A stretch of DNA of 64,000 nt from Polymorphobacter multimanifer. GTDB taxonomy: Bacteria > Pseudomonadota > Alphaproteobacteria > Sphingomonadales > Sphingomonadaceae. The stretch covers positions 1 to 64,000 of the forward strand of contig NZ_JACIIV010000002.1 in assembly GCF_014205635.1 (NCBI RefSeq), read 5' to 3'. Positions 20,616 through 36,100 of the stretch are shown piece by piece (positions within the stretch are counted from its first letter, which is position 1; every line of letters starts with the position of its first letter). A program made the position numbers and the translations under genes. The notes beneath the pieces are model-generated. The model was not told the DNA's origin. It saw only the letters and a program-made list of their open reading frames with translations, and searched no databases.

Positions 20616-21433
20616 TGCCGGGACGGGCCGAAACCGATGTGGCGCTGGCACGGCGGCTGGCGCAGACGGCCGGAGAGCTCGCGCTCCGCCATTTCCATGG
20701 CCCCGAAGACTGGTGGGACAAGTCGCCGGGCAACCCTGTGAGCCGGGCCGACCTCGAGGTCGATGCCTGGCTGAAGGCCGAGCTGGCCAGCGCCCGCCCC
20801 GAAGACGGCTGGCTGTCGGAAGAGACCGCCGACACGCCCGGCCGGCTGGGATGCCGCCGCGTGTGGATCATCGACCCGATCGACGGCACCCGCGATTTCG
20901 TACGCGGTCGCACCGGCTGGGCGGTGAGCGTGGCACTGGTGGAGGATGGGGCGCCGGTCGTTGCCGCGCTGCACGCACCGGCGCGCACCCAGCTTTTCGT
21001 GGCCGAGCTTGGCAAGGGCGCTTGGCTGGGCGATGTGCCGCTCCATTGCAGCGGCCGCGAGGGCTGCATCCGGCTCCCAATCGATGCGCAGAACCTTGCG
21101 GCACCCTTCTGGCCGGCGCCATGGCCCGGCGGCGAGCTTGTGGAAAAGCCCAACAGCCTGGCGCTGCGCATGGCCAAGCTGGCAGCGAGCGAGGCTGATG
21201 CCTGGATCGAGGGGCGCACGGTGAACGAATGGGATGTCGCGGCATCCGCGCTCATCGTCAGCGAGGCAGGAGGAACGGTGACCGATCGCCACGGCCAGCC
21301 GCTGAGCTTCAACAAGCCCGATCCGATCATCCACGGCGTGGCCGCGGCTGCTCCCGGCCTGCACCCGCTGGCACTGCATTATCTGCAGCACGCGCTCGCC
21401 ATCTTTGCGGCGCATCGGCGGGCGGCGGGCTAG
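20615..21433 (+). CDS. inositol-phosphatase-family enzyme, CysQ-like 3'(2'),5'-bisphosphate nucleotidase
   Basis: The 272-residue protein has the family metal-binding motifs: SEETAD (acidic ligand, about 69-74), IDPIDGTRDFVRG (about 87-99) and WDVAASALIVSEAGG (about 209-223). It is closest in layout to CysQ, which removes the 3'-phosphate from PAP produced in sulfate assimilation, though a myo-inositol phosphatase role is possible. Its ATG shares bases with the pmbA stop (TGATG). It ends converging on galE with a 4-bp overlap. Confidence 0.82.
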   Translation: MPGRAETDVALARRLAQTAGELALRHFHGPEDWWDKSPGNPVSRADLEVDAWLKAELASARPEDGWLSEETADTPGRLGCRRVWIIDPIDGTRDFVRGRTGWAVSVALVEDGAPVVAALHAPARTQLFVAELGKGAWLGDVPLHCSGREGCIRLPIDAQNLAAPFWPAPWPGGELVEKPNSLALRMAKLAASEADAWIEGRTVNEWDVAASALIVSEAGGTVTDRHGQPLSFNKPDPIIHGVAAAAPGLHPLALHYLQHALAIFAAHRRAAG

Positions 21434-22518
21434 GCCGCGACTGCCACCGCGTCTTCGGGAGCCTTGCTGCGCTGGCGCTCCCAAGCCAGTGCATGGCCGA
21501 CCATCGTCGTCAGGTCCTTGTAGGCCGGCGTCCAACCGAGTGCGGACGCGAGGCTGGCGTCGGCCACCAGGCTGGCGGGATCCCCGGCGCGGCGCGGTCC
21601 GAAGCTGTAGGGGATGTTGCGGCCGCTTACCTTGCCCAGCGCCGACAGCACATCGAGGACGCTCTGCCCCTCGCCATAACCGAGGTTGAAGGTGAGGCTC
21701 TGCCCCTTGGCGGCGAGGATCGTTCGCAGCAGCAGCACATGTGCTGCGGCGATGTCGCTGACATGCACATAGTCGCGCACCCCCGAGCCGTCGGGAGTTG
21801 GATAGTCATTGCCATGGACAGTGATCATGTCGCGCTGGCCGGTGGCGACCTGCGTGGCGATCTCGATCAGATGGTGCGGGTGGAGGCTGTTCTGGCCCGA
21901 GCGGCCGAGCGGATCGGCGCCGGCGACGTTGAAATAACGGAGGATGCCGACCGACATGCCGTGCGGCGACGCGGCAGCAATGTCCCGCAGCACACGCTCG
22001 GCCATCGCCTTGGAGGCACCATAGGGGTTGATCGGATCGAGGCGATCGGTCTCGCGAAGCCGGGAGCCGTCGTTCTCGGCATAGACAGCGGCGGTGGAGG
22101 ACAGGAGGACCGCGCCGACGCCGGCAGCTGCAGCGGTGTCGGCAAGCTCCAGCGTCTCCACGAGATTGTTGCGATAATAGGCCGCAGGCTGCGTCACCGA
22201 ATCGCCGACACTGATGCTCGCAGCGAAATGCATGACCGCGCCGATGTTCTCGCGCCGGATGATCCGCGTGACCAGCGCGGAGTCGCCGGCCTTGCCGCGC
22301 ACGAACACTGCTCCCTCGGGCACCAGCAACGACGAGCCGGTGGACATGTCATCGAGCACAACCACCTTCACGCCCTGATCGAGCAGTGCAAGGGCTGCAT
22401 GGCTGCCGATATAGCCGGCGCCGCCTGTCACCAGCACGGCGGGGCAATCGGCAATCGGGATCTTCGGGAGCGGCTCGGACTGGACGATCGGCGTGGGCCG
22501 GTTGCGATGTTTAGCCAT
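21430..22518 (-). CDS. galE: UDP-glucose 4-epimerase
   Basis: The 362-residue short-chain dehydrogenase interconverts UDP-glucose and UDP-galactose. It has the NAD motif VTGGAGYIGSH (about 30-40), catalytic serine region LLSSTAAVY, and the YGASK catalytic pair (Tyr/Lys about 171-175). NLGYGEGQSVLDV and RRAGDPASLVAD are GalE hallmarks. AAGGAG lies 7 bases before the ATG. A strong sigma-EcfG promoter match lies 31-55 bp upstream, so it is probably stress-induced. The product feeds the UDP-galactopyranose mutase encoded at 30424. Confidence 0.93.
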   Translation of the reverse strand: MAKHRNRPTPIVQSEPLPKIPIADCPAVLVTGGAGYIGSHAALALLDQGVKVVVLDDMSTGSSLLVPEGAVFVRGKAGDSALVTRIIRRENIGAVMHFAASISVGDSVTQPAAYYRNNLVETLELADTAAAAGVGAVLLSSTAAVYAENDGSRLRETDRLDPINPYGASKAMAERVLRDIAAASPHGMSVGILRYFNVAGADPLGRSGQNSLHPHHLIEIATQVATGQRDMITVHGNDYPTPDGSGVRDYVHVSDIAAAHVLLLRTILAAKGQSLTFNLGYGEGQSVLDVLSALGKVSGRNIPYSFGPRRAGDPASLVADASLASALGWTPAYKDLTTMVGHALAWERQRSKAPEDAVAVAA

Positions 22519-22548: not shown

Positions 22549-22573
22549 AACCCGGATTTCAGAGTCTTGTTCC
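22549..22573 (-). promoter_or_regulatory. sigma-EcfG promoter for galE
   Basis: Read on the minus strand, GGAAC (22573-22569) is followed by 17 bases and GTT (22551-22549). This is the consensus -35/-10 arrangement for the alphaproteobacterial general-stress sigma factor EcfG, which is encoded at 25850. The -10 end is 30 bp from the galE ATG, leaving room for the AAGGAG ribosome site. Confidence 0.75.
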
Positions 22574-22621: not shown

Positions 22622-23593
22622 TCAGCGAGCCAGTGGCGCAACGTTGAGACGCAGCTTGATCGCCAGTCCGCGCCGCCGCCAACGGCGCTGGGTTTCCGAA
22701 GCAAGGCCCATCTTCATGGCGCGGTCGATGAGGGCCGTACCGAAGCCCTGCTGCCCTGGAGCCGCGGTGATCGGCGGGCCGCCGCTCTCCACCCACATCA
22801 ACGTCAGATGCTCCGCCGACTGGCGAACGCGCACGGCGATGCGCCCCTGCGGGCTTGAAAGGGCTCCATATTTGACCGCGTTCGTGGCGAGCTCATGCAC
22901 GACCAGCGTCACGAAGGTGGATGTCGACGGCCCGAGCGGGGCATCGACACCGGTGATCGTCACTTCCGGCCCATCGGTTTCGGCATAGGGGCGCAACAGC
23001 AGTTCGAGCAGCCCCTGCAGCCGCACCGGGGCTGCCTCATTGGCACCCGTCATCGGCCAGGCATATTCATGCGCCTGCGCCAGTGCCGCGAGCCGCGCCT
23101 TGGCGCTGGCGGCAAAATCCTTCGCTTCGGGGCGTGACCGTGCGGAAAAGGCGATGACGCTGCCGACGACGGCGAAGATGTTGCCGATCCGGTGTGCGAG
23201 CTCGCGCGCCAGAAGCGTGGCCTGGCTCTCGCTGGACTTGATGGCATCGATGTCCACCGCGGTCCCGATCCAGCGGGCCGTCCCGATATCGAAGGCTGCA
23301 CGCGCGAGCACCCATCCATATTGGCTGTTGTGCCGGCGCAACCTGAAGCTCTGCTCGAACGGCGCGCCGCTGGCCATGCTCGCCTGCCAGCCGCTCCCCA
23401 GCGCCTCCCTGTCATCGGTGTGGACGGCCTGCAGCCAATCCGACCCGGCACAGGCTGCGGCATCGAGGCCGGTATGGGCGTGCCAGCGCGCATTGAAATG
23501 CCAGTGCTGTCCGCCATCGGTCGCCACCCAGGCGATTTCCGGCAGCGCATCGAACATATTCCCAGTGCCCGGATCGAACGCGGACAACGCCAT
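22622..23593 (-). CDS. HWE/HisKA_2-type sensor histidine kinase with PAS domain
   Basis: From ATG 23593 the protein has 323 residues: a PAS domain (about 10-120), then the dimerisation/phospho-histidine segment LARELAHRIGNIFAVVGS and an HWE-type ATPase domain. The N-box is intact (VVHELATNAVKYGAL) and the W-x-E-x-GGPP motif is present (MWVESGGPPI). No membrane segment is seen, so it is cytosolic. Kinases of this class phosphorylate PhyR, and this one lies 1 kb from phyR, so a PhyR-activating role is likely by inference. A GTG at 23740 with GGAG 5 bases upstream would add 49 residues made of GGSTL-type repeats; the lower GC at third positions there makes me prefer 23593. Confidence 0.85.
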   Translation of the reverse strand: MALSAFDPGTGNMFDALPEIAWVATDGGQHWHFNARWHAHTGLDAAACAGSDWLQAVHTDDREALGSGWQASMASGAPFEQSFRLRRHNSQYGWVLARAAFDIGTARWIGTAVDIDAIKSSESQATLLARELAHRIGNIFAVVGSVIAFSARSRPEAKDFAASAKARLAALAQAHEYAWPMTGANEAAPVRLQGLLELLLRPYAETDGPEVTITGVDAPLGPSTSTFVTLVVHELATNAVKYGALSSPQGRIAVRVRQSAEHLTLMWVESGGPPITAAPGQQGFGTALIDRAMKMGLASETQRRWRRRGLAIKLRLNVAPLAR

Positions 23594-23650
23594 GAAACTA
23601 CTTTCGCATGGCTCCGCTCGGGACCCTGCGTCTGGCATTGCCGGAAAGCC

Positions 23651-23710
23651 GAGGGTCGAACCGCCGAGGGTCGACCCGCCCGGGGTCGAGCCGCCCAGGG
23701 TCGAACCAAC
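23651..23710 (-). repeat. four tandem 15-bp repeats upstream of the HWE kinase
   Basis: Four imperfect 15-bp units follow one another; the first on the plus strand is GAGGGTCGAACCGCC. On the minus strand they would encode Gly-Gly-Ser-Thr-Leu/Pro repeats if translation of the kinase starts at GTG 23740, otherwise they lie in its leader. Unit length is a multiple of three, so copy changes would keep the frame. Confidence 0.8.
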
Positions 23711-23788
23711 GCCTCGCTGGCCGAATTCATTTTGGTGCACAGCGTCTCCGCGGGGGCCAGATGTCCAAAAGCCCGGATAATCTGGTTC

Positions 23789-24595: not shown

Positions 24596-25393
24596 TCAGT
24601 TGGTTTCGGCGCGCTTGAAGCTGCGTGCCATCAGCGCCTGGCCGATGGTGGCGATCACCGTCTCGGCCTTGAACGGTTTGGTCACCAGATACGCCGGTTC
24701 GGGACGCTCGCCGGTCAGCAAACGTTCCGGGTAAGCGGTGATGAAAATCACCGGCACATCGAAGGTTTCCAGGATTTCGCGCGCGGCATCGAGGCCGGAA
24801 GATCCGTCGGCCAGCTGAATGTCGGCAAGCACCAGCTCCGGCAGAACCTCATGTGCGCGGATCGTTGCATCCTCATGCGTCATCGCCATGCCGGACACTT
24901 CATGCCCCATGTCCTCGACGATCTGCTCGAGATGCATCGCAATGAGCGGCTCGTCTTCGATGATCAACACCCGCGACCGGATCGTCTCGGCGATGGCGGC
25001 CTTGGCACGGCTGACCTGGCCGGCAATCACCTCTTCGGTCTCATCGAGGATGAAGGCGGTCTCGGCGAGGCTGAACCCCTCGACAACAGTCAGCAGCAGC
25101 GCCTCCATGCCTCCCGGCGGCATGTCGTAAATCTCTGTTGCCGGCAATGAAGGTGATGGCAGCTCAGCGGTCTGCAGCACCGAGTGGAACAGCCGGAACA
25201 ACGCCAGCTTGGGCCGCTTGTCGTCAGCCGAATAACTGCCCGGCAGATGCTCGGGCTCGATCAGAATGGTTTCCAGGGTCAGGCGCACATAAGCGTCTCC
25301 ACGACGCTGCGCACCGGTAAGCGCACGTGCATACCGGCGGAGGGGAGGCAAATGCGGCCCGAGCGCAGCCCGCATCGAAATCACTTCTGTCAC
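24596..25393 (-). CDS. phyR: PhyR general-stress response regulator (anti-anti-sigma factor)
   Basis: The 265-residue protein has the diagnostic PhyR architecture: an N-terminal ECF-sigma-like domain (about 5-135) joined to a C-terminal receiver. In the receiver the acidic pocket is IIEDEP (144-149), the phospho-acceptor is Asp191 (LVLADIQLADG), and Lys239 lies in LVTKPFK. Phosphorylated PhyR exposes the sigma-like domain to bind NepR, freeing EcfG. Start is GTG at 25393, supported by GGAG 7 bases upstream. It is transcribed divergently from nepR-ecfG, with its own EcfG promoter. Confidence 0.96.
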   Translation of the reverse strand: MTEVISMRAALGPHLPPLRRYARALTGAQRRGDAYVRLTLETILIEPEHLPGSYSADDKRPKLALFRLFHSVLQTAELPSPSLPATEIYDMPPGGMEALLLTVVEGFSLAETAFILDETEEVIAGQVSRAKAAIAETIRSRVLIIEDEPLIAMHLEQIVEDMGHEVSGMAMTHEDATIRAHEVLPELVLADIQLADGSSGLDAAREILETFDVPVIFITAYPERLLTGERPEPAYLVTKPFKAETVIATIGQALMARSFKRAETN

Positions 25394-25541: not shown

Positions 25542-25853
25542 ATGGCTGAAAAACATCCCGCGGCCGATGGTGCACAGGAGCCTGCAAAGCCGCTCTATCA
25601 TGAGTCGCAGCAGGACATGGGACTGCCGTTGCGCGGCGCGGGTCCACCCCGGCGCGGTCGCCGTGTCGGTGATGATCCCGTGTCGCTGGGACTGCGGAAG
25701 CTTTGGCAGGACGTGGAACGCGAGTCGGTGCCAGACGAGTTCTTCGATCTTCTCGATGCCATCGACGCCGTTCGCAAATCGTCCGAGTCCCCGCCGTCGA
25801 ATGAACCTGCCGCGCTGGCCAACGGGACCATCGAGCCCGAGGGCAGCCAATGA
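25542..25853 (+). CDS. nepR: NepR anti-sigma factor
   Basis: The 103-residue protein carries the NepR core LRKLWQDVERESVPDEFFDL (about 60-79) after a disordered, basic N-terminus (GPPRRGRRVGDD). NepR holds EcfG inactive until phospho-PhyR competes for it. The stop overlaps the ecfG start by 4 bp (ATGA), ensuring balanced synthesis. A serine/proline-rich tail follows the core. Confidence 0.93.
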   Translation: MAEKHPAADGAQEPAKPLYHESQQDMGLPLRGAGPPRRGRRVGDDPVSLGLRKLWQDVERESVPDEFFDLLDAIDAVRKSSESPPSNEPAALANGTIEPEGSQ

Positions 25854-26488
25854 GCAAGGTGGTTGATCACGCAGGCGGCGAAATTCCGGAAGGTACGCCG
25901 GCCCCGGGCACCAGCGGAAAGTTGCGCCTCGGTGCGAGCGATGAAGCGCAATTCCGGCGCCAGTTGACCGAGGTCATCCCTTCGCTCCGGGCCTATGCCC
26001 GCAGTCTTTGCTACAACCGGGATCTGGCCGATGACCTGACGCAGGAAGCGCTCGCCAAGGGTTGGGGCGCACGCGCCTCCTTCACGCCCGGCAGCAATTT
26101 TCGCGGCTGGATGTTTCGGATCCTGCGCAACCACTTTTATTCCGTGGTCAAGGTGTCGCGCCGGTTTGTCGAGCTCGATCCCGAAGTGACCGACCGGTTG
26201 ATGGTGACGGCCCCATCGCAGGAGGCAGGCCTCAATCTCGAAGATTTGCAGCGCGGTCTGCTGCTGTTGCCGGCGGAGCAGCGTGAAGCTTTGCTGCTGA
26301 TGGAGTCGGGGCTTCGCTGCGAGGACATTGCCGGGATCATGGACACGCCGGTCGGCACCGTGAAAAGCCGGATCAGCCGTGGCCGCAGCGCGCTTCGGCG
26401 CCACATGGATGGATCATCCTCGCATGAGTCCGCTCGCCTGCCATCGTCCGGCCGGTCGCAATTGTCGCAGACAGCCAACAATCGCTGA
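25850..26488 (+). CDS. ecfG: EcfG general-stress sigma factor
   Basis: The 212-residue ECF sigma factor (ECF15 group by context) has region 2 (AYARSLCYNRDLADDLTQEA, then GSNFRGWMFRILRNHF) and region 4 (LPAEQREALLLMESGLRCED, then PVGTVKSRISRGRSALRRHM). It directs RNA polymerase to GGAAC-N17-GTT promoters; matching sites were found before phyR, nepR, galE, the hemerythrin gene and the gene at 34239. It shares one base with the next gene (TGATG). Confidence 0.96.
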   Translation: MSKVVDHAGGEIPEGTPAPGTSGKLRLGASDEAQFRRQLTEVIPSLRAYARSLCYNRDLADDLTQEALAKGWGARASFTPGSNFRGWMFRILRNHFYSVVKVSRRFVELDPEVTDRLMVTAPSQEAGLNLEDLQRGLLLLPAEQREALLLMESGLRCEDIAGIMDTPVGTVKSRISRGRSALRRHMDGSSSHESARLPSSGRSQLSQTANNR

Positions 26489-28269
26489 TGCAGGAAATGT
26501 TCGGAAAGCCTGCGCCGCGACGAACGGCGAGTCTTGTTGCGCCGTTGCCGCTGCTCGACCGGATGACCCGCAGGAGTTCCATTCGCGGCATCCTCCTGTT
26601 CATCATGCTGGTGTCGCTGCTGCCGCTGGTGCTGCTTTCCACCTGGCAGGGGATCGCCCGGCTGCAGCGCGACCGCAGCGCCGGAAGCGGGCAATTGCTC
26701 GAATCTGCGATGATGACCAGCGCGTCCGAACGCAATGTTATCGCAGGTGCCCGAGCCATTCTTGGCGTGCTGGCGACAATCCCCGATGTCCGGGCGCGCG
26801 AGCAGGCAACATGTGGCCCCATCCTGCAGGAAACCGTACGGCGCTATCCGGCCTATAGCCATTTCTCGATCGCGCGGCCCGATGGCACGCTCGCCTGCGC
26901 GAGCGACCCGAGCGCCGTCGGCATGACGATGAAGGAGCCGATCCTCTCGAAGCAGTTGCAGACCAGCGGATTTCTGGTGACGGCACCGATATGGGGCGAG
27001 ATTTCGAACCGACCGATCCTGCGCGCCGTGCTGCCACTCCGCGCTGCCGACGGCGAATTTGACGGGGTCATCACGGCATCGATCGATCTTGCGTGGATCG
27101 AGCGGCTGCTCAGCGAACAGCATCGCCTCGACAATGTGGCTGTGGCGCTGGTGGATGGCGCAGGCCGCCCGGTGGTGAGCAGCCGACAGCTGCCGTGGAA
27201 GCAGCTCGATATTCTTCCGAAGAATGCTGATGCAAATAACGACGAGGTGTTCACCGTGGCAGGGCCGGACGGGCGGGACTGGTCCTATGCCGTGGCACCG
27301 CTGCATATCGATACCGAAGGCGGCGAATCGTTCCACATTGTCTATGCCGCTGCCCAGCCGTTCCGCTTCGGCAGTGACTGGTGGTTTGCCGCAGGCTATT
27401 TCCTGCTGCCGCTGCTCGCGCTGGTGCTGGCCTCGGCGGCAATCTGGTATGGTGCCAACCGCGCCATCCTGCGCTGGATTGCCGAGCTCGGGACACTCGC
27501 CGGGCGAATCGGCAACAGCGGTGGTTCCGATCTCAGGCGCCGGCCAAGCTTTGCCAATGCGCCGATGGAAATGCGCGATTTTGCGGCGGACCTTTTGCGC
27601 ATGGGCAATTCGATTGCCGAGCGCGACCATCGGTTGCGGCAATCGGTCGAGACCCAGACGGCCGTGGCGCGCGAACTTCATCACCGGGTCCGCAACAACC
27701 TGCAGGTGATGGGCAGCTTTCTCAGTCTTCAGGCTGCACGCATGCCTGCCGGGCAGGCGCGCGTGGCGCTCGACGAAGCGCAGCTCCGCGTCGCGACGCT
27801 GGCGATGGTCAACGGCCTGCTCTACGCCGACGGCGAGCTCACCACAGTGTCGGTTTCCGATCTGCTTGAGCCTCTCGAGGAGCTGCTGGCGTCGCACGGC
27901 CGCTGCCGCGGCGAGGTGATCGTCGATCCCGATCTTGCACCGCAGGTTGTCGATCTCGATCGTGCCGTGCCGCTCTCCTTGTGGGTGGTGGAAGCTGCCG
28001 TCTGCCTGTTCGAAAGGGCGGGCGGGGATGAGGATGCCGGGACCTTCCGTATCCATATCACCAGCGAGGACGATATGATCTGCTTCGTGGTGACCGCACA
28101 CGGCCTGCTCCCCGATTCCGGTCGTGACAGCCTTCACCGCCGGCTCGTCATCGCCATTGCCCATCAATTGGGGGGCCGCTCGCGCATCGACGATGTCGGG
28201 CCGGACAAGGGCCAGATCGTGCTGTCGATGCCGCTGGACAAGGTGATGACAGTCGAGGCGCGCGGTTGA
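26488..28269 (+). CDS. phyP: PhyP-like membrane sensor with degenerate ATPase domain
   Basis: The 593-residue protein has a transmembrane helix (about 35-55), a periplasmic sensor region and a second helix (about 305-325). The HisKA_2 segment RELHHRVRNNLQVMGSFLSL follows (His398). The ATPase half is abnormal: the N-box position reads VVEAAVCLF (500-508) where an Asn is expected, and the G1-box position reads VTAHGLLP (535-542) without the Asp. In Sphingomonas sp. Fr1, PhyP is encoded at the same locus and negatively regulates PhyR, so a phosphatase-type role is favoured over kinase activity. It is coupled to ecfG by TGATG. Confidence 0.82.
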   Translation: MQEMFGKPAPRRTASLVAPLPLLDRMTRRSSIRGILLFIMLVSLLPLVLLSTWQGIARLQRDRSAGSGQLLESAMMTSASERNVIAGARAILGVLATIPDVRAREQATCGPILQETVRRYPAYSHFSIARPDGTLACASDPSAVGMTMKEPILSKQLQTSGFLVTAPIWGEISNRPILRAVLPLRAADGEFDGVITASIDLAWIERLLSEQHRLDNVAVALVDGAGRPVVSSRQLPWKQLDILPKNADANNDEVFTVAGPDGRDWSYAVAPLHIDTEGGESFHIVYAAAQPFRFGSDWWFAAGYFLLPLLALVLASAAIWYGANRAILRWIAELGTLAGRIGNSGGSDLRRRPSFANAPMEMRDFAADLLRMGNSIAERDHRLRQSVETQTAVARELHHRVRNNLQVMGSFLSLQAARMPAGQARVALDEAQLRVATLAMVNGLLYADGELTTVSVSDLLEPLEELLASHGRCRGEVIVDPDLAPQVVDLDRAVPLSLWVVEAAVCLFERAGGDEDAGTFRIHITSEDDMICFVVTAHGLLPDSGRDSLHRRLVIAIAHQLGGRSRIDDVGPDKGQIVLSMPLDKVMTVEARG

Positions 28270-28283
28270 AGCCTGACGCCGGC

Positions 28284-28727
28284 TCAGACCAGATAGCCTG
28301 GCCGGGCCACGAAGGCCTGCATGCGCGCCCCAAGCGCTTCAAGATCGAGGTCGGAGCCCCGCACCCGCCGGAAGATCTGCCGCTCCTCCATTTCTGCATG
28401 GTGCGCGAAATGCTCGCGGAGCACGGTCATATGGGCACGGAGCATCTCCGGCGACATGGCAGGATCGGCGATGTGCTCAAGCAGAAATTCGGTGGTCATG
28501 CGCTCCACGACGGCAACATCGATCAGCTCGGCGGTGTCGAGCACTGCAGACACGGCCGGATAGAACACCTGCTGCTCGAGCGCCTGATGGCTTGCGATCG
28601 CCGCACAGATCGGCGCTTTCAAGGCCAGCTGCCGCTCCGGGGTGGCGACTTCGAATTGCTCGAAGAGCGCATCGATCTCGCGGTGTACAGCGGTCAGCAG
28701 GGCAATGGCATTGGGTGGTTGGGGCAC
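28284..28727 (-). CDS. hemerythrin HHE-domain protein
   Basis: The 147-residue helical protein has hemerythrin-type ligands: His15, an HxxxE pair at His47/Glu51 and another at His110/Glu114 (HAEMEE), plus His85, His99 and His106 nearby. Such di-iron proteins bind O2 or NO or handle peroxide and iron during stress. Start is GTG at 28727, with AAGG 8 bases upstream. It lies 14 bp from the convergent phyP end and has a strong EcfG promoter, making it a direct member of the stress regulon. Confidence 0.87.
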   Translation of the reverse strand: MPQPPNAIALLTAVHREIDALFEQFEVATPERQLALKAPICAAIASHQALEQQVFYPAVSAVLDTAELIDVAVVERMTTEFLLEHIADPAMSPEMLRAHMTVLREHFAHHAEMEERQIFRRVRGSDLDLEALGARMQAFVARPGYLV

Positions 28728-28909: not shown

Positions 28910-29209
28910 ATGAACAAGATTGCTCTGCTCGCTCTCTCGACTGGATTCGCGACCATGGCCGTGGCGCAGGAAGCGCCGCCGACAACTGGTTCCACGGCAG
29001 TACCCTCTGCTCCGGCTCCGGCACCGCCCCTCGGCGCGCCGAATGCCGGCATGGGCAACGCGCCTTCCGCTAGCATCCCGGCCACGCCGCCGCAGCGACC
29101 GCCTTTGGCGGACCGCGGACTTGGATCCATGCCGACCGCGCCTGCGCCTGCGCCAGCGATCGGCCAGACCCCGGCGCCGGGCTCGGTCGTGGAGAATCCA
29201 CGACCCTGA
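28910..29209 (+). CDS. small exported Pro/Ala-rich protein
   Basis: The 99-residue protein has a signal peptide (MNKIALLALSTGFATMAVAQ) and a mature part made almost wholly of Pro, Ala, Gly, Ser and Thr, with no recognised domain. It is likely unstructured and periplasmic or surface-associated. GGAGG lies 5-6 bases before the ATG. It precedes the glycosyltransferase by 49 bp and may share its transcript. The function is unknown. Confidence 0.7.
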   Translation: MNKIALLALSTGFATMAVAQEAPPTTGSTAVPSAPAPAPPLGAPNAGMGNAPSASIPATPPQRPPLADRGLGSMPTAPAPAPAIGQTPAPGSVVENPRP

Positions 29210-29258
29210 GGCCGGATCATCGACCTGATTGCCGACTCCGACGAAAGAACCATCTTCG

Positions 29259-30431
29259 ATGAAAATGCTGTCCAGCGCGGCCAACGGGCTTGTCGCGACC
29301 GATGCCGATGCGCCAACACATCCCTTGCTGCTTTGTTTCTCGCATCTGCGTTGGAATTTTGTGTTTCAGCGCCCGCAGCACCTGATGACCCGCGCCACCA
29401 CCGATTACGAAGTGATCTTCGTGGAGGAGCCGATGGATGCGCCCGACATGACGCCGGGCTGGTCGATCGCCATCAGCGGCGGGGTTACCGTCGCAACACC
29501 GCTGCTTCCCGCTGGCGGCAGTCATGAGCAGCGCGTCGAAACCCAGGCGTTGCTCGTCGACAATCTGCTGATGGGCCGGCTGCCCCGCGTCGTCTGGTAT
29601 TACACGCCGATGGCGCTCGAATTCAGCGGCTCGCTCGGCAGCACCACGACTGTCTATGACAACATGGACGAACTGGCGCTGTTTCATGGAGCCGACAGCC
29701 GCATCCGCCAGCAGGAAGCACTGCTGATGGCGCGGGCCGATGTGGTGTTCACCGGCGGCCACAGTCTCTACGAGGCCAAGCGGCATCTGCATCCCAATAT
29801 CCACCCGGTGCCATCGAGCGTCGATATCGCCCATTTCCGCCGGCCCGAGCCGATGCTCGCCGATCCGCAGGATCAGGCGCATATCCCGCATCCGCGCATC
29901 GGCTTTTTCGGCGTCATCGACGAGCGGATGGACATGGCGCTGGTTGACGAGCTGGCCGCACGCTGCCCCGAGATGCAGTTCGTGATGGTTGGGCCGATCG
30001 TGAAGATCGACCCTGCTTCGTGCCCCGAGCGTCCCAACCTCCATTGGATCGGCGGCAGGAGCTACGACCAGCTGCCCGCCTATCTCCACCATTGGGACTG
30101 CGGCTTCATGCCGTTCGCGCGCAACGATGCCACGCGCTTCATAAGCCCCACCAAGACACCGGAATTCCTGGCAGCCGGCTTGCCCGTCGTCTCCACCGCC
30201 ATCCCCGATGTGCAGAACCCCTATGGCGATCTCGGCCTTGTCGGAATCGCCGATGATGCCGAAGGCCTTGCCGCCGCCATTGAGGTCGCTCTTGCCTCTG
30301 CCGGCGACCCTGCATGGCACAGCCGCGTGGCCGAGCAGCTGCGAAGCTCGTCGTGGGACAGCACCTGGGCGCTGATGCACCGTGAAATCAGCACCGTCAC
30401 AACGCAAGCTCTGGAGAGCGAACATGCATGA
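29259..30431 (+). CDS. glycosyltransferase (GT-B fold, GT4-like)
   Basis: The 390-residue protein opens with the family motif LLCFSHLRWNFVFQRPQHLM and has a GT-B donor-site region: GRSYDQLPAYLHHWDCGFMP, then ISPTKTPEFLAAGLPVVST. Such enzymes retain sugar configuration and use nucleotide sugars. It overlaps the UDP-galactopyranose mutase gene by 8 bp, so a galactofuranosyl donor is a reasonable guess. ATG 29259 is preferred over an upstream in-frame TTG at 29229. No membrane segment is visible. Confidence 0.82.
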   Translation: MKMLSSAANGLVATDADAPTHPLLLCFSHLRWNFVFQRPQHLMTRATTDYEVIFVEEPMDAPDMTPGWSIAISGGVTVATPLLPAGGSHEQRVETQALLVDNLLMGRLPRVVWYYTPMALEFSGSLGSTTTVYDNMDELALFHGADSRIRQQEALLMARADVVFTGGHSLYEAKRHLHPNIHPVPSSVDIAHFRRPEPMLADPQDQAHIPHPRIGFFGVIDERMDMALVDELAARCPEMQFVMVGPIVKIDPASCPERPNLHWIGGRSYDQLPAYLHHWDCGFMPFARNDATRFISPTKTPEFLAAGLPVVSTAIPDVQNPYGDLGLVGIADDAEGLAAAIEVALASAGDPAWHSRVAEQLRSSSWDSTWALMHREISTVTTQALESEHA

Positions 30432-31542
30432 TTGGATTGTGGTCGGCGCCGGCTTTGCCGGTGCGGTAATGGCCGAGCGCATCGCCTCGCAACGCGGCGA
30501 GACCGTGCTGGTGGTCGACAAACGCGACCATATCGCCGGCAATGCGCATGATCGCCGCAATGCCGATGGCGTGCTCTTCCACCAATATGGCCCGCACATC
30601 TTCCATACCAACAGCAGCATGATCTCGGATTATCTGTCGCAGTTCACCGAATGGCGCCCGTACGAGCATCGCGTGCTGGCGTCGGTCGATGGGCAGCTAG
30701 TGCCGATTCCGATCAATCGCACCACGATCAACAAGCTCTATGGGCTCGACCTCGACGAAGCCGGCGTCGAAGCCTTTCTGGCGGCGCGCGCCGAGCCCGT
30801 CGAGACCATCCGCACCTCCGAGGACGTCGTCGTCGGCAAGGTCGGGCGCGAGCTCTACGAGAAGTTCTTCCGCGGCTATACCCAGAAGCAATGGGGCCTC
30901 GATCCCAGCGAGCTCGATCGCTCGGTGACGGCACGGGTGCCTACGCGCACCAACGATGACGACCGTTACTTCACCGACTCGTTCCAGCAGATGCCGCGCG
31001 ATGGCTATACGGCGATGTTCGAGCGCATGCTCGCCAATCCGCTCATCACCGTCCAGCTCGGCGTCGATGCGCTGGCGATGCCGGCCGCCGACCGGCCGCG
31101 GCGGATGGTCTTCACCGGGCCGATCGATGCCTATTACGGCCATGTCTATGGTGCGCTGCCGTATCGCTCGCTGCAATTCCACCATGTCACGCTCGACGAG
31201 GCCTGGACGCAGCAGGTCGGAACGATCAACTTCCCGCAGGATCAGGATTATACCCGCGTCACCGAGGTGAAGCACCTCACCGGTCAGAACCACCCCTGCA
31301 CGACCCTCACCTATGAGTATCCGAGCGCGGAGGGCGACCCCTATTATCCCATTCCGCGGCCGGAGAACGAAGCGCTGTTCAAGCGCTACGAAGCGCTCGC
31401 ACGTGCCGAGGAGAACACCTGGTTCGTCGGACGGCTGGCAACATACCGCTATTACAACATGGATCAGGTGGTCGGCCAGGCACTCGCGACGTTCCAGCGG
31501 CTCGATGCTGCGGTGCCGCGCACCGGTCGGCAAGCCGCCTGA
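30424..31542 (+). CDS. glf: UDP-galactopyranose mutase
   Basis: The 372-residue flavoenzyme converts UDP-galactopyranose to UDP-galactofuranose. It has the FAD-binding start WIVVGAGFAGAVMAERIA, the active-site region YGPHIFHT, GYTQKQWGLDPSEL, and VTGPID-like text (VFTGPIDAYYG), ending in WFVGRLATYRYYNMDQV. Length matches Glf (about 370-390). It overlaps the upstream glycosyltransferase by 8 bp. Its substrate is supplied by GalE, encoded at 21430. Confidence 0.95.
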   Translation: MHDWIVVGAGFAGAVMAERIASQRGETVLVVDKRDHIAGNAHDRRNADGVLFHQYGPHIFHTNSSMISDYLSQFTEWRPYEHRVLASVDGQLVPIPINRTTINKLYGLDLDEAGVEAFLAARAEPVETIRTSEDVVVGKVGRELYEKFFRGYTQKQWGLDPSELDRSVTARVPTRTNDDDRYFTDSFQQMPRDGYTAMFERMLANPLITVQLGVDALAMPAADRPRRMVFTGPIDAYYGHVYGALPYRSLQFHHVTLDEAWTQQVGTINFPQDQDYTRVTEVKHLTGQNHPCTTLTYEYPSAEGDPYYPIPRPENEALFKRYEALARAEENTWFVGRLATYRYYNMDQVVGQALATFQRLDAAVPRTGRQAA

Positions 31543-31551
31543 AGCAGCGAC

Positions 31552-32688
31552 ATGATCCAGCCTCTCTTCGGGACCATGTTGATGGGCGGCTTCGAATGTG
31601 CTGCCCAGAAATTGAAGTCACGCAGACGGCTGGATATCGCCGCCAGCACCGGCCATGCAGCACGCGCTGCCGAGGATTATCGGCTGCTGCACGCGCATGG
31701 CATGGCGGCGGCGCGCGATGGCCTGCGCTGGCACCTCATCGAGCAGCGGCCCGGCCGTTATGACTGGTCGAGCTTCCTGCCGATGCTGCGCGCGGCGCGC
31801 GAGACGAACACGCGGATCATCTGGGATCTGCTGCACTATGGCATCCCCGATGGTGTCGATGTCTTGTCGCCGCGCTTCATCACCCGTTTCGCCGCCTTTG
31901 CGCGCGAAGCGGCGCGGGTGATCGCCTCGGAGACCGACACTGCCCCCTGCTTCACGCCTGTCAACGAGATCAGCTACTGGGCCTTTGCCGGCGGCGATAC
32001 CGGCGATCTCAACCCGTTCGCGCGGGGCTCTGGTGACGTGCTCAAGCGGCAGCTCGTCCGAGCCGCCCTCGCCGCCACGTGCGAAGTGCGCAGCATCAAC
32101 AGCCAGGCACGGATCACCTGCGCCGAGCCGTTGATCAATGTGCTCCCGGCCGACGCCTCGCCAGCGGCGGCGGCAAAAGCGGCACGGCACAATGAATCGC
32201 AGTTCGAGGCGGTCGACATGCTGCTCGGCTTGAAGGCGCCTGACCTCGGTGGCCATGCCGATGCGCTCGATGTCATCGGGTTCAACTATTACTACAACAA
32301 CCAGTGGATCGATGAGGGACGCACCGTCTTCCTCGGAGACTGGCTTCACGTCCCGTTGCATCAGCTGCTCGGTCCGGCTGCCGCGCGCTACAGCCAACCC
32401 GTCTACATCGCCGAGACCGGCACCGAAGGCGTGTTTCGCCCGCACTGGCTCCGCTACGTCTGCGACGAGGTGTGCGTCGCTGCCCGGCAAGGCACGATGG
32501 TCGGCGGCATCTGCCTCTATCCGATCATCAGCCACCTCGGCTGGGTCGACGACCGGCACTGCCAGAACGGCCTGTTCGATGGCCATGCTCCCGACGGGCA
32601 TCGCCATGCCCATGCCGCGCTGGCCGGGGAGATTCGCGATCAGGCGACACGCTTCCGAGCGCTCGCGCGCGTGTCGGCCGCAGCTTGA
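31552..32688 (+). CDS. GH1-like glycoside hydrolase (clan GH-A)
   Basis: The 378-residue TIM-barrel protein has the acid/base motif FTPVNEISYW (Asn138-Glu139) and a nucleophile motif VYIAETGTEGVF (Glu288), as in beta-glucosidase-type retaining enzymes. It is shorter than classic GH1 enzymes (about 450). No signal peptide is present, so it acts in the cytoplasm. It could edit or release a glycosidic intermediate of the cluster's product. A TTG start of the next gene overlaps its stop. Confidence 0.75.
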   Translation: MIQPLFGTMLMGGFECAAQKLKSRRRLDIAASTGHAARAAEDYRLLHAHGMAAARDGLRWHLIEQRPGRYDWSSFLPMLRAARETNTRIIWDLLHYGIPDGVDVLSPRFITRFAAFAREAARVIASETDTAPCFTPVNEISYWAFAGGDTGDLNPFARGSGDVLKRQLVRAALAATCEVRSINSQARITCAEPLINVLPADASPAAAAKAARHNESQFEAVDMLLGLKAPDLGGHADALDVIGFNYYYNNQWIDEGRTVFLGDWLHVPLHQLLGPAAARYSQPVYIAETGTEGVFRPHWLRYVCDEVCVAARQGTMVGGICLYPIISHLGWVDDRHCQNGLFDGHAPDGHRHAHAALAGEIRDQATRFRALARVSAAA

Positions 32689-33731
32689 GCATCGGGGCGC
32701 CGCCCGTTGTCGTGGCGATTCCGGCACGAAATGAAGCAACACGGATCGGTGCGGCATTGGAAGCCCTTGCCGCGCAACCGCATGCCGACAGCAGCATTGC
32801 GGCCGCTATCGTCCACGCCAACAATTGCACCGATGCCACGGCCGCGGTCGCCCGCAGCGTGGCGCTGCCGTTTCCGCTCATCGTCATCGAAGCCGTGATG
32901 CCGTCGGCCGAATCGCATATCGGCCACGCCCGCCGCGCAGTGACCGAAGCCGCGGTGGCACATCTGCTCCGGCTCGGTCGCCCTGATGGCATCGTCGCCG
33001 GCACCGATGCCGACAGCCGCGTGGCCGGCGACTGGCTCGGGCGGTTGCTGGCCGCCTTTGTGCCGCAGATCGACGCCGTGTGCGGCGTGATCGCCCTCGA
33101 TGGCCCGATCAGCGCACCGCTCGCGCGCGTGCGGGAGGCCGAAGCCGAGTATGCCGCGATGGTCGCGCGCGTCACCGATTGGCTCGATCCGCTCGATCAT
33201 GATCCCTGGCCCAACCATGTCTGGAGCTGGGGCGCCAATTTCGCCGTGCGCGCCAGCACGCTTTCCACCGTTGGCGGCTCACCGCTGGTCGACCTTGCCG
33301 AAGACCGGGCGCTGCATGCCGCCCTTGTCCGCCATGATGCGCGAATTCGCCATGCCTGCGACGTGCAGGTGTTCACCTCGGCGCGCGCCGATGGTCGCGC
33401 ACCGGGCGGGCTTGCGGACCTGCTGAGCGACTATGCGACCGACCAGGACGCCCTTGCCGATTTTGCCCTCGAGCCGGCGGCAACGACCTGGGACCGCGCC
33501 GCGCGCCGCGTTGCTGCCCGTGCGCGCTGGGGCAGCCGCCCGGGCTTCGGTGCCGCCTGGGCAGCGCAGGAGGCAGAGACGCCCCGCCTTGCCCGGCAGC
33601 GTGTGGCTGTTCGCGCCTTGCCGGCGCAAACCGCCTTGTTGGGCCGCTGGCTTAAAGACGCAGCAGATCGATCCGATAGTCGCGTTCCGCTGCCTGGTGC
33701 AGGATTGTCGCTGCAGGCCGCAGGGCATTGA
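32685..33731 (+). CDS. family 2 glycosyltransferase (GT-A fold)
   Basis: The 348-residue protein begins VVVAIPARNEATRIGAALEA, the GT2 nucleotide-sugar site, and has the metal motif GTDADSR (about 107-113). An SWGANFAVR acceptor-loop segment follows. TTG 32685 is chosen because it overlaps the upstream stop (TTGA), giving coupling. No transmembrane helices are obvious, unlike polymerising GT2 enzymes. Its last 80 bp overlap the 3' end of the convergent methyltransferase gene. Confidence 0.82.
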   Translation: MSIGAPPVVVAIPARNEATRIGAALEALAAQPHADSSIAAAIVHANNCTDATAAVARSVALPFPLIVIEAVMPSAESHIGHARRAVTEAAVAHLLRLGRPDGIVAGTDADSRVAGDWLGRLLAAFVPQIDAVCGVIALDGPISAPLARVREAEAEYAAMVARVTDWLDPLDHDPWPNHVWSWGANFAVRASTLSTVGGSPLVDLAEDRALHAALVRHDARIRHACDVQVFTSARADGRAPGGLADLLSDYATDQDALADFALEPAATTWDRAARRVAARARWGSRPGFGAAWAAQEAETPRLARQRVAVRALPAQTALLGRWLKDAADRSDSRVPLPGAGLSLQAAGH

Positions 33732-34242
33732 TGAACAGTTCCGCCGCAGCATTGCCGGTGAGCGGATAGTCGGGCGTCGGCCCAAGCCAATGGACGAGCA
33801 GGACATCGGCACCGGGCGCCGCTACCGCCCTGGTGACCCGCACCGCGCGCATGAGTGCGGGTGGATCGAGGTAATAGAGCACTTCGGAGAGCATGATCAG
33901 ATCATAGCCCTCGGCGGGCGCATCCTGCTGCACTTCGCCGGGAAAGGCCCGGCCCGCCAGCCGCACATTGCCGAGGTGGCGGGTTCGTGCGCGTGCGCGC
34001 TCGATTGCGGCCTCGGCCACATCGATGCCGAGCAGACGGTCGCATCGCGGTGCCAGCGCCTGCGTCAGAACCCCGATCGAACAGCCGACTTCGAGCGCGG
34101 CATTGTAGCGCTGCCGCGGCAGCGCGGCCAGGGTCGCTGCATATTTGCCCGCTTCATAGTCGCTGGTTTCGAACTTCCAGGGATCGGGATCACGTTTGTA
34201 GAGCGCGTCGAAATAGGCCGGCGGCAAGCTTCCCATCGTCAT
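33652..34242 (-). CDS. NodS-like SAM-dependent methyltransferase
   Basis: The 196-residue enzyme has the NodS-family opening YFDALYKRDPDPWKFETSDY and a SAM motif ALEVGCSIGVLTQALAP (49-65), followed by LLGIDVAEAAI. NodS N-methylates a freed amino group on rhizobial lipo-chito-oligosaccharides; the substrate here is unknown. A PIG-L deacetylase 1.1 kb away could produce such an amine. It overlaps the upstream dehydrogenase gene by 4 bp, so both are driven by the EcfG promoter at 35375-35399. Confidence 0.85.
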   Translation of the reverse strand: MTMGSLPPAYFDALYKRDPDPWKFETSDYEAGKYAATLAALPRQRYNAALEVGCSIGVLTQALAPRCDRLLGIDVAEAAIERARARTRHLGNVRLAGRAFPGEVQQDAPAEGYDLIMLSEVLYYLDPPALMRAVRVTRAVAAPGADVLLVHWLGPTPDYPLTGNAAAELFINALRPAATILHQAAERDYRIDLLRL

Positions 34243-35366
34243 TCTCCGATATCGCGATGCATCGGCCGCTCGGCGAGTGCCCAGATCGCTGCCGAATCAA
34301 GAGCAGCATCGGGAAACGGCTGGCGGAGATAGGTGGCGAGATCGCGGACGATCCGCTCGATGGGGTTGGGCCGCAGCATCGTCGAGAGCCCGATGCCGCG
34401 CTGTACGCGCTCGATCACGTCGAGCGCTGCCCGCTCGAAGCCGTGGCGTGCAAGATTGACGAACGCATCGATCTCGTCGCCCGGCCGCCTGGCGTCCTCG
34501 GCAATCGCGGCGGCGCCCGCCGTCCACAGCCGGGCGGTTTCGAGCGCGGCCACAGCCTCGCCGAAGCGCGCGCGCTGCACAGGGTCCTCGGTCCGGTTGC
34601 GATCGACCATCTGCGAGCGGTAGAGCGACACCAGCCGCTCGATGGACCCGAGCTGCACGGCGAGCACCCGCCAGGCGCCGCCGGCGAAATGCGGGCTGCA
34701 ATAATAATCCCCCGCCTCACCGACGATCTCGGCATCGCCGACGGCAATGCCGGTGAAGTCGACGGACCCGGTGAGCGAGGCGCGCATCCCCAGCGGAGTC
34801 CAGCTGGAAAGGTCGTTCCGCGCCGCCTGCACATCGGCCAGCAGCATCAGCACGCCCTGCGGCGTGCCCGCGGTCAGCAGCGGGCGCCGCACCATGCCGG
34901 TGCCGGACGTGTAGATCTTGCTGCCTGCTAGCCGGCGGTCGGCCAGCGTCACGCCCAGGCCGGTCTGCGCGTTCCACACTGCTGAAAGACGGCCGGCAGC
35001 GGCTTCGTTAGCGAGCAGTTGCAACTGAGCCGCCGTGCCGAAGCGCGTGACCAGCCGCACGGCGTTGACATGGCCTTCGTACAATCGCCCGAGTGAAAGC
35101 GATCCGCCGCCGATGATCCGCAATACATCGCGCATCGCCGGAGCCGTCGCTGAATCCATCCCGAGCCCGGTGCCGCCGAGCCGCGCGGGCAGCGGCGCAT
35201 GCAGCAACCCTTCGACGGCCAGCGACGCCACTTCCCGATCGAGCACGCAGCCATCGCAATCGCGTGCCGGCGCCAGTTCATAGGCCAATGCGGCGACATG
35301 ACAGGCCGCCGCGACCGGACCGGGCGGTGCGGCGGGAACCGGAGCAACGGGAGCATGATTGAGCAT
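34239..35366 (-). CDS. acyl-CoA-dehydrogenase-like protein
   Basis: The 375-residue protein follows the acyl-CoA dehydrogenase fold: LPARLGGTGLGMDSAT near the N-terminus, a flavin-binding middle (AVWNAQTGLGVTLAD, then TPLGMRASLTGSVDFTG) and a helical C-terminus with YRSQMVDRNRTEDPVQRARF. I could not identify the catalytic glutamate, so oxidation of an acyl-CoA is not assured; it may act on an acyl or sugar-linked group. Its ATG is 2 bp from the divergent PIG-L start. A perfect EcfG promoter ends 8 bp before the ATG, giving an almost leaderless transcript. Confidence 0.78.
   Translation of the reverse strand: MLNHAPVAPVPAAPPGPVAAACHVAALAYELAPARDCDGCVLDREVASLAVEGLLHAPLPARLGGTGLGMDSATAPAMRDVLRIIGGGSLSLGRLYEGHVNAVRLVTRFGTAAQLQLLANEAAAGRLSAVWNAQTGLGVTLADRRLAGSKIYTSGTGMVRRPLLTAGTPQGVLMLLADVQAARNDLSSWTPLGMRASLTGSVDFTGIAVGDAEIVGEAGDYYCSPHFAGGAWRVLAVQLGSIERLVSLYRSQMVDRNRTEDPVQRARFGEAVAALETARLWTAGAAAIAEDARRPGDEIDAFVNLARHGFERAALDVIERVQRGIGLSTMLRPNPIERIVRDLATYLRQPFPDAALDSAAIWALAERPMHRDIGE
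35335..35359 (+). promoter_or_regulatory. candidate sigma-EcfG promoter for the PIG-L gene
   Basis: GGAAC (35335-35339), 17 bases, then GAT (35357-35359): one mismatch in the -10 triplet. It lies inside the dehydrogenase coding region and ends 9 bp before the PIG-L ATG, mirroring the opposite promoter. Confidence 0.45.
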
Positions 35367-35368
35367 CG

Positions 35369-36100
35369 ATGGTCAACGCGCTCATGCCGTCGTCGTTCCC
35401 TGCGCCGGGACCCCTGCCGGCGCTCGATCGCTGGCGAGCGGCATCGGGCTGGACGCCGGCTGCCACACTGCTCGGTGCTGCCCGCTCGCTGGGGGTGATC
35501 GTGCCGCATGCCGATGATGAGACGCTGGGCTGCGGCGGCCTGATCGCCACCGCCAGCGCCATGGGGATAGACGTCACCGTCACCATCCTCACCGACGGCG
35601 CCGCATCGCATCCGGAATCGTTGCAATGGCCGCCGGCGCGTCTGGCGCACCGACGGCGGCAGGAGGCGCGCACTGCGGTCGCGATCCTCTCCGCAGGCAC
35701 CGCGCGGCTCGTCTTCGCGAACGCGCCCGATGGAGCGCTCGCCGATCATCCTGAGGTAGCCGCGTCGGTGCCACCGGCGGACTGCTATGTAAGCTGCTGG
35801 CGCGACGATCCCCATCCGGACCATCAGGCCGCATTTGCGGTGGCGGTGGCGGTTGCCACGGCGCATGCCGCGCCGCTGTTCGCCTTTCCGCTATGGGTGC
35901 TCGATACCGATCTGCCGGTCCCCGATCTGGCCATCCACCGGATCGATGTGACTCCGCACATGGCGCGCAAGCGCCGGGCCCTGGCAGCGCATGCAAGCCA
36001 GCTCGGCCAGCTCGTGACCGACGATCCCGGCTTCATCCTCGATGATCCGCTCCAGCAGCTGTTCCTTCGCCCGGACGAGCTGTTGATTGCGGTGCGCTGA
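35369..36100 (+). CDS. PIG-L family deacetylase
   Basis: The 243-residue enzyme has the zinc motifs of the PIG-L/LmbE family: PHADDE (46-51) and HPDH (149-152). Members remove N-acetyl groups from GlcNAc-containing lipids and small molecules. Beside a NodS-like methyltransferase and two glycosyltransferases, deacetylation of an amino-sugar intermediate is the simplest inference. An ATG at 35384 is an alternative start. The gene stops 8 bp before the convergent TSUP gene. Confidence 0.87.
   Translation: MVNALMPSSFPAPGPLPALDRWRAASGWTPAATLLGAARSLGVIVPHADDETLGCGGLIATASAMGIDVTVTILTDGAASHPESLQWPPARLAHRRRQEARTAVAILSAGTARLVFANAPDGALADHPEVAASVPPADCYVSCWRDDPHPDHQAAFAVAVAVATAHAAPLFAFPLWVLDTDLPVPDLAIHRIDVTPHMARKRRALAAHASQLGQLVTDDPGFILDDPLQQLFLRPDELLIAVR
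35375..35399 (-). promoter_or_regulatory. sigma-EcfG promoter for the dehydrogenase-methyltransferase pair
   Basis: On the minus strand GGAAC (35399-35395), 17 bases, then GTT (35377-35375). The -10 ends 8 bp before the ATG, so transcription would begin at or next to the start codon. The site lies within the first codons of the divergent PIG-L gene. Confidence 0.75.

Follow-up and report, generated by a model that had tools for sequence, protein, structure and literature searches.

In Sphingomonas melonis Fr1, the regulon of which is among the known systems closest to the one considered here, the general stress sigma factor EcfG recognizes the motif GGAAC-N17-20-GTT, which, according to the excerpt of the regulon study on which we draw, is enriched within 100 nt of a gene, with some sites as close as 2-10 nt to the start. 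Glycosyltransferase genes are among the top EcfG targets in that excerpt, including the EcfG-dependent genes #3506-3509 (Table 1), one of which is named an exopolysaccharide biosynthesis protein, and about 40 percent of the EcfG-dependent genes have no assigned function (PMC6599016). Here we analyze bases 1-64000 of contig C2 of Polymorphobacter multimanifer (whole genome 3.92 Mb; this 64,000-nt stretch is hereafter the window), where seven genes for glycosyl transfer and amino-sugar modification lie beside an EcfG locus.

Several families of enzymes set the chemical context. In Nod-factor synthesis, the NodB deacetylase frees an amine and NodS methylates it. BshB and MshB, the deacetylases of bacillithiol and mycothiol, have the PIG-L fold and act on a small glycoside, whereas KijD3 and DnmZ, the sugar N-oxygenases (nitrososynthases), are flavoenzymes of the acyl-CoA dehydrogenase (ACAD) fold that act on amino sugars. 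UDP-galactopyranose mutase (UGM, the product of glf) often serves surface glycans. On balance, we lean toward the interpretation that the seven genes encode a general-stress-controlled tailoring pathway, the product of which would be a galactofuranose (Galf)-containing glycoside that carries a tailored amino sugar.

Gene content of the locus

All seven open reading frames (ORFs) that the original prediction, made from the DNA letters alone, had placed here are present and uninterrupted at 29259-36100. Downstream (3') of the EcfG locus, the order is a hemerythrin-like gene, a small Pro/Ala-rich ORF, and then the following genes:

29259..30431, + strand: GT1-type glycosyltransferase (GTa); PF13692 above cut-off
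30424..31542, + strand: Glf, UDP-galactopyranose mutase; TIGR00031, 378.7 bits (cut-off 303.75)
31552..32688, + strand: GH1-like glycosidase (GH); structural model (pLDDT 63) matches GH1 beta-glucosidases; fused to the ACAD in three Deinococcus records
32685..33731, + strand: GT2 glycosyltransferase, TTG start; PF13641 and PF00535 above cut-off
33652..34242, - strand: NodS-like SAM methyltransferase (MT); PF05401, 72.9 bits (cut-off 24)
34239..35366, - strand: ACAD-fold flavoprotein, monooxygenase-like by sequence and profile
35369..36100, + strand: PIG-L/LmbE-type deacetylase; PF02585, 70.7 bits (cut-off 28.2); putative metal-site residues kept

The overlap is 8 nt between GTa and Glf, 4 nt between GH and GT2, and 4 nt between the MT start and the ACAD stop, whereas PIG-L runs divergently from ACAD, their start codons being 2 nt apart. 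We therefore read the set as two operons, GTa-Glf-GH-GT2 and ACAD-MT, plus a separate PIG-L gene. We refer to PIG-L, the ACAD-fold flavoprotein, the NodS-like MT, and GT2 as the core.

The enzyme assignments differ in depth. The predicted identity of Glf is upheld at the level of the UGM equivalog model. Conservation is complete (52 of 52 rows each) for PIG-L residues H47, D49, D50, E51, H149, D151, and H152, of which we take H47, D49, D50, H149, and H152 to be metal-site residues, and for GT2 residues D108, D110, E206, and D207. The MT reaches the family level (PF05401) but not the NodS equivalog NF041650 (84.9 vs 300 bits). GH has no match in Pfam or NCBIfam; its low-confidence model was matched by Foldseek to GH1 beta-glucosidases, and E139 and E288, presumably the catalytic Glu pair, are kept in 3 of 3 rows.

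The label "acyl-CoA-dehydrogenase-like" in the original prediction survives for the fold, with PF08028 just passed (23.2 vs 22.7 bits); the nearest sequences are those of flavin monooxygenases. DszC, MsuC, and the flavin-containing monooxygenase 5z8t come at or near the top of the sequence and profile searches, and the first five profile matches are DszC entries, 5z8t (so titled), and its near-twin 5gj7. No Glu occurs among the 12 residues after the conserved RDL in 21 rows, the stretch in which, we assume, the catalytic Glu of most ACADs lies. Judged by sequence, the protein is nearer to flavin monooxygenases, with "class D" as the candidate group, than to dehydrogenases, whereas the Z values of the two groups in the fold comparison tie.

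Conservation across genomes

Co-conservation outside this genome had been set beforehand as a test of the prediction, and the genes proved to be co-conserved within the genus, the family, and in Deinococcus. A search of 199 genomes of the family with the ACAD protein gave 31 matches, of which the genome's own and five weak ones (<30 bits) were removed, leaving this ACAD type in 25 of the 198 other genomes. Matches to PIG-L, MT, and GT2 share its locus in 21 of the 25; among the remaining four, two lack one gene in the locus (G102, G156), one locus is cut by the contig end (G029), and one has the ACAD alone (G161). Strong Glf matches, not counting two near 250 bits, occur in 40 of the 198 genomes and are thus commoner than the core. 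All 14 family genomes with strong GH matches also have Glf (14/198; p=2e-11), the core occurs with Glf in 12 of 25 genomes (expected 5.1; p=7e-4), and half of the GH genomes have the core (7/14, expected 1.8; p=4e-4).

Within the genus, 24 genomes, including that of the window, contain the ACAD in 7, strong Glf in 11, and GH in 12 cases. All 7 ACAD-positive genomes carry both Glf and GH (by our own arithmetic, a chance of ~1e-3 for Glf); the seven genes lie within ~7 kb in five of these and are spread across contigs in two. Gene order is variable: the window matches P. glacialis, whereas three loci (L187, L191, L192) place GTa-Glf-GH behind PIG-L. The window order recurs in L032 and L033 at 50-71 percent identity. 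L032 is a 9-kb contig binned as Acetobacteraceae, with its seven-gene set 50-71 percent identical to that of the window, so that it represents either horizontal transfer or a mis-binned contig.

Farther afield, a class-wide sample of 288 other genomes yielded the ACAD in 4 and GH in 3, with Glf adjoining in all three GH genomes. The four core genes occur together on contigs of Lichenibacterium, Bradyrhizobium, Rhizobium, Pararhizobium, Devosia, Marinibacterium, Jannaschia, and Sphingobium and on most Sphingomonas contigs; one core gene is missing in Beijerinckia L45 and Methylobacterium longum. Plasmid records hold all four core genes in Deinococcus sp. NW-56, Bradyrhizobium, Nostoc, and Sphingomonas, and the ACAD, PIG-L, and MT in D. 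radiodurans and Roseomonas.

Gene fusions point in the same direction. Of the 17 loci with both GTa and Glf, 9 encode the two as a single ORF (787-945 aa), and three plasmid records of Deinococcus contain GH-ACAD fusions: in D. radiodurans, GH-ACAD is one 779-aa protein followed by PIG-L, a helicase gene, and the MT; in D. wulumuqiensis, a single gene holds the GH and ACAD matches, and a TnpB-type gene, PIG-L, and MT come after it; and in Deinococcus sp. D7000, both matches sit within a protein of 837 aa, behind which a glycosyltransferase and glf are encoded. The occurrence, in another phylum, of the GH-ACAD fusion and of its adjacency to glf argues for a common pathway of GH, Glf, and the core. 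Taken as a pattern of gene neighborhoods, the GTa-Glf-GH-GT2 operon and the core tend to travel together.

Other neighborhoods were seen as well. At one locus, the annotated neighbors include catalase, a Dps-type protein, and ferritin-like genes; at a second locus, they include Ku/LigD. In six loci of Sphingomonas, Sphingobium, and relatives (L055, L056, L069, L071, L078, L082), the core is flanked by GT4b, c28, and c13, which by eye resemble glycosyltransferases; operon #3505-3509 of S. melonis, which is EcfG-dependent, might be an example of this arrangement. In a Sinorhizobium meliloti plasmid operon (L178, 3397-11146), a long glf ORF is accompanied by a glycosyltransferase of 1079 aa and by a GT4 ORF in which a GH match lies; this operon has an EcfG-type site 21 nt before the estimated GTa start.

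EcfG-type promoters

The original prediction had also placed the set beside an EcfG locus and had called a perfect EcfG promoter in front of two of its genes and one in front of galE; the locus and these sites are present, and PIG-L has a facing EcfG-type site of its own that had been overlooked. The relevant features are:

35375..35399, - strand: ACAD-MT EcfG-type promoter, GGAAC-N16-CGTT; 8 nt from the ATG, inside PIG-L codons
35335..35360, + strand: PIG-L EcfG-type promoter, GGAAC-N18-ATT; 8 nt from the ATG, inside ACAD codons; score 12.0, window p=0.02
22549..22573, - strand: galE EcfG-type site, GGAAC-N17-GTT; 30 nt from the start; score 13.5, window p=0.010
21430..22518, - strand: galE, UDP-glucose 4-epimerase, a source of UDP-Gal; TIGR01179, 371.6 bits (cut-off 262.3)
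24596..25393, - strand: PhyR; NF006623, 294.2 bits (cut-off 240)
25542..25853, + strand: NepR; PF18557, 26.8 bits (cut-off 25.7)
25850..26488, + strand: EcfG-type sigma factor; sigma-70 r2 and r4_2 above cut-off
26488..28269, + strand: PhyK-like sensor histidine kinase; NF051872, 214.6 bits, under the equivalog cut-off of 750

The sigma factor is named EcfG because of its PhyR/NepR neighborhood. The site before the ACAD would drive the ACAD-MT operon. galE lies ~7 kb upstream of GTa, across the EcfG locus; as both are predicted members of their equivalog families, GalE and Glf could supply UDP-Galf.

Sites were scored with a matrix of the 24 among the 26 S. melonis motifs in the excerpted Table 1 that score at least 10 (#1750 and #3508 omitted; PMC6599016). 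A strict match is expected by chance 0.63 times per 64-kb window, so that position and conservation have to carry the weight. An EcfG-type site at p<0.05 precedes 30 of 37 homologous GTa-Glf operons, a count that omits the window itself (row L128, p=0.59), vs 13 of 128 control genes drawn from 20 of the same loci (Fisher p=2e-16). For the core, the matrix applied to 61 loci found a site at p<0.05 before the ACAD operon in 21 of 51 core loci vs 0 of 10 contrast loci; the latter (seven lone-ACAD Methylobacterium rows, L036, L037, L042, L043, L045, L046, and L063, which are mutually close relatives, the contig-cut L061 and L062, and L088) were chosen non-randomly, for absent or cut-off core genes. 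After dropping the near-identical rows L041, L052, L053, and L090, the comparison is 18 of 47 core operons vs 57 of 442 other leading genes of the core loci (Fisher p=4e-5). Control starts are those of the longest ORF, whereas target starts were estimated by homology; L188 and L209 are the same contigs as L033 and L047, respectively, and each was counted once. Because rows share ancestry, the Fisher values are too small. The spacers between the EcfG boxes vary freely among loci.

EcfG-type promoters are conserved on GTa-Glf operons and, within the window's clade, on the core, which lends comparative support to EcfG control of the module. The stress control originally proposed is consistent with the sites on ACAD, PIG-L, galE, and the 30 homologous operons; the window's own GTa operon lacks a good EcfG site, so that its control could differ here from that in its relatives.

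A facing promoter pair in a constant frame

The ACAD and PIG-L promoters face each other, each lying within the first ten codons of the opposite gene. In the window's clade and its genus relatives, the ACAD site has the form GGAAC-N17-GTT with the start codon exactly 8 nt on in 13 of 13 unique loci, several of which offer alternative start codons too. In 12 of the 13 loci with a divergent PIG-L, the junction reads GGAAC-N18-DTT-N14-AAC-N17-GTTCC, 65 bp of constant length, the single exception being Beijerinckia L035; this count is only descriptive because the frame was derived from these same loci. Apart from the pattern letters, the 12 junctions have in common only CAT, which is the start codon of ACAD read from the opposite strand. 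The promoter letters dictate conserved N-termini, M-x-N-x6-V in 12 of 12 ACADs and, in PIG-L, M-x-N-x6-F in 7 and M-N-x6-F in 5.

A scan of 397 family genomes with the frame gave 13 matches, nine at the PIG-L/ACAD junction, three in one coding motif, and one elsewhere. Seven of the nine junction matches had been used to derive the frame, the full G190 junction and G600 being new, so the scan bears on specificity, with only four non-junction matches in 397 genomes; a reversed-pattern control gave one match among the rows listed. The three coding matches (L201, L203, L206) are a coincidence in the conserved motif EYYNGxANxTLWPLFH, presumably of trehalose-phosphate synthase.

Transcription is expected to start ~5-8 nt after the -10 element, which implies that both the ACAD-MT and the PIG-L messages would be leaderless, and they probably are. 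Leaderless messages are known in Alphaproteobacteria; the excerpted Bradyrhizobium study lists 320 transcription starts 0-10 nt from the start codon (PMC4842269). Since the polymerase sites overlap, only one polymerase at a time would occupy the junction, and this arrangement would couple or alternate the two transcripts. The results of our literature search contain no published description of a facing EcfG promoter pair.

A possible pathway

The most likely product, as read from the predicted enzymes, is a Galf-containing amino-sugar glycoside that is deacetylated, N-methylated, and oxygenated. GTa would transfer Galf and GT2 would transfer an N-acetylamino sugar, both onto an acceptor in the cytosol; PIG-L would take off the acetyl group, the NodS-like enzyme would methylate the freed amine, the flavoprotein would oxygenate the amine or a nearby carbon, and the GH1-like enzyme would trim or rearrange the glycoside. 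Under stress, the cell may in this way produce a small glycoside or glycolipid with a protective role. We infer the order of the enzymes, the acceptor, and nitrogen as the site of oxygenation.

A bolder proposal, which we regard as possible but doubtful, is a new class of stress metabolites, Galf glycosides with an amino-sugar nitrogen that is both methylated and oxygenated, produced in sphingomonads, other Alphaproteobacteria, and Deinococcus, with synthesis in the window's clade gated by two leaderless, mutually exclusive EcfG promoters. If so, promoter letters would dictate conserved N-terminal residues of two divergent enzymes. The facing pair offers a clean, mutable test of how a 65-bp junction is shared by two polymerases, as well as of leaderless initiation directed by a stress sigma factor, and a conserved module with readable enzymes gives a concrete chemical product to look for. 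The Deinococcus link suggests that this product may matter for survival of drying or radiation.

Alternative explanations

Several observations weigh against a single EcfG-controlled pathway. Of the 25 family genomes with the core, 13 lack strong Glf, and of the 40 with Glf, 28 lack the core; in Deinococcus sp. D7000, no core PIG-L or methyltransferase is annotated within the 8-kb flanks. The window's GTa-Glf-GH-GT2 operon has no convincing EcfG site (best score 2.6, p=0.59; 6.2, p=0.22, in a wider stretch), 29 of 47 core operons have none at p<0.05, and other genes in these loci reach p<0.05 in 12.9 and 10.2 percent of cases vs the nominal 5; this background is above nominal, yet the rates of core operons and controls still differ. 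Finally, in the profile search with the flavoprotein, the plain acyl-CoA dehydrogenase 4u83 ranks sixth, and the model (pLDDT 86.5) gives Z values of 33-36 for plain ACADs and flavin monooxygenases alike.

The strongest competitor, unlikely but serious, posits two neighboring stress modules, with GTa-Glf-GH making one Galf glycoside and the core another amino-sugar compound. It would explain the family genomes that have one part without the other, the Sphingomonas and Sphingobium loci in which the core is joined by different partners, and the Sinorhizobium operon, in which glf and the GT4 gene holding the GH match have no core gene annotated within 10 kb. It fits poorly with the presence of Glf and GH in all 7 ACAD genomes of the genus, the GH-ACAD fusion in three Deinococcus records, with the order GH-ACAD-GT-glf in one, the seven-gene order common to the window, L032, and L033 despite 50-71 percent identity, and the recurrence of all seven genes in another order in L187, L191, and L192.

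A stress-made surface polysaccharide, capsule or exopolysaccharide, seems improbable to us. The set does contain several glycosyltransferases plus Glf, with its frequent role in surface glycans. The S. melonis glycosyltransferases #3506-3509, comparable here by annotation, are EcfG-dependent (PMC6599016). Family hits of the seven proteins, however, include no flippase, polymerase, export gene, or membrane-anchored, lipid-linked initiator, and by 19-residue mean hydropathy there is no clear membrane segment: the top means, 1.87 in PIG-L and 1.75 in GT2, are above the usual mark of 1.6, but these borderline stretches lie inside catalytic domains. A surface polymer thus gains no support from the gene set, although the set is compatible with one.

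More improbable still is a glycolipid with an acyl chain desaturated by a true acyl-CoA dehydrogenase. The ACAD fold, the tie in Z values, the marginal PF08028 match, and the sixth rank of 4u83 would suit such an enzyme, but the best sequence matches are DszC, MsuC, and 5z8t, and the 12 residues after RDL contain no Glu. That the EcfG sites are chance matches, as the expectation of 0.63 strict matches per window and the elevated background might suggest, hardly deserves credence in view of the sites on 30 of 37 GTa-Glf and 18 of 47 core operons and the 65-bp frame in 12 of 13 divergent loci.

Three narrower candidates for the product were rejected: a small-thiol pathway, as PIG-L is far under the BshB and MshB cut-offs; sphingomonad glycosphingolipid synthesis, which fails as a general answer because the core also occurs in Deinococcus and Nostoc; and methylobamine, reportedly a UV compound of Methylobacterium, for which the literature results gave no genes and which was dropped as speculation. 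We retain the stress-controlled Galf glycoside pathway as the preferred interpretation.

Neighboring genes

The small Pro/Ala-rich ORF (28910-29209, + strand), between the hemerythrin gene and GTa, seems by eye to start like a signal sequence. A weak EcfG-like site, GGAAC-N17-CTT (score 7.6), the first base of which is 66 nt ahead of this ORF, might act on the GTa operon. The hemerythrin-like protein (28284-28727, - strand) has a weak likeness, under cut-off, to the PA2171 persister family, and its gene has its own EcfG-type site 34 nt upstream. An HWE-type PAS histidine kinase (22622-23740, - strand), between galE and PhyR, is a possible extra input to the stress cascade. In the genus member G492 (L190, 16482-19910), a PhyK-EcfG-PhyR locus lies ~5 kb from PIG-L, so that such proximity is not peculiar to the window. 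A relaxase-like protein (3762-6026, - strand; PF03432 and DUF3363 above cut-off), with an EcfG-like pattern at 5690-5665 in its 5' part, is possibly a mobile-element remnant.

Comparison with known systems

We found no description of this gene set in open-access full text, in searches that were partly aimed elsewhere and left most subscription journals outside their scope, and a term search of the excerpted text of a Sphingopyxis EcfG paper returned nothing on such genes (PMC7083833). The S. melonis EcfG regulon is alike in its motif, its near-start sites, and its glycosyltransferase targets, but its Table 1, as excerpted, contains no PIG-L, acyl-CoA dehydrogenase-like, NodS-like, or Glf gene, and the excerpt describes no facing promoter pair (PMC6599016).

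The succession of a deacetylase and a NodS-type methylation would parallel Nod-factor synthesis, except that a PIG-L fold takes the place of NodB and the MT scores 84.9 bits against the 300 of the NodS equivalog. The window's PIG-L differs from BshB and MshB, with 38.2 vs 182.5 bits for BshB1 and no Cys ligase among the seven genes. KijD3 and DnmZ resemble the model of the flavoprotein (Z 35.0 and 34.3) but at 16-17 percent identity, and plain ACADs score about as high. Like known bacterial UGMs encoded beside glycosyltransferases, Glf passes TIGR00031 and has a glycosyltransferase adjoining it or in the same ORF; what sets it apart is its linkage to the genes for PIG-L, the flavoprotein, the MT, and the GH1-like enzyme, as well as to EcfG sites.

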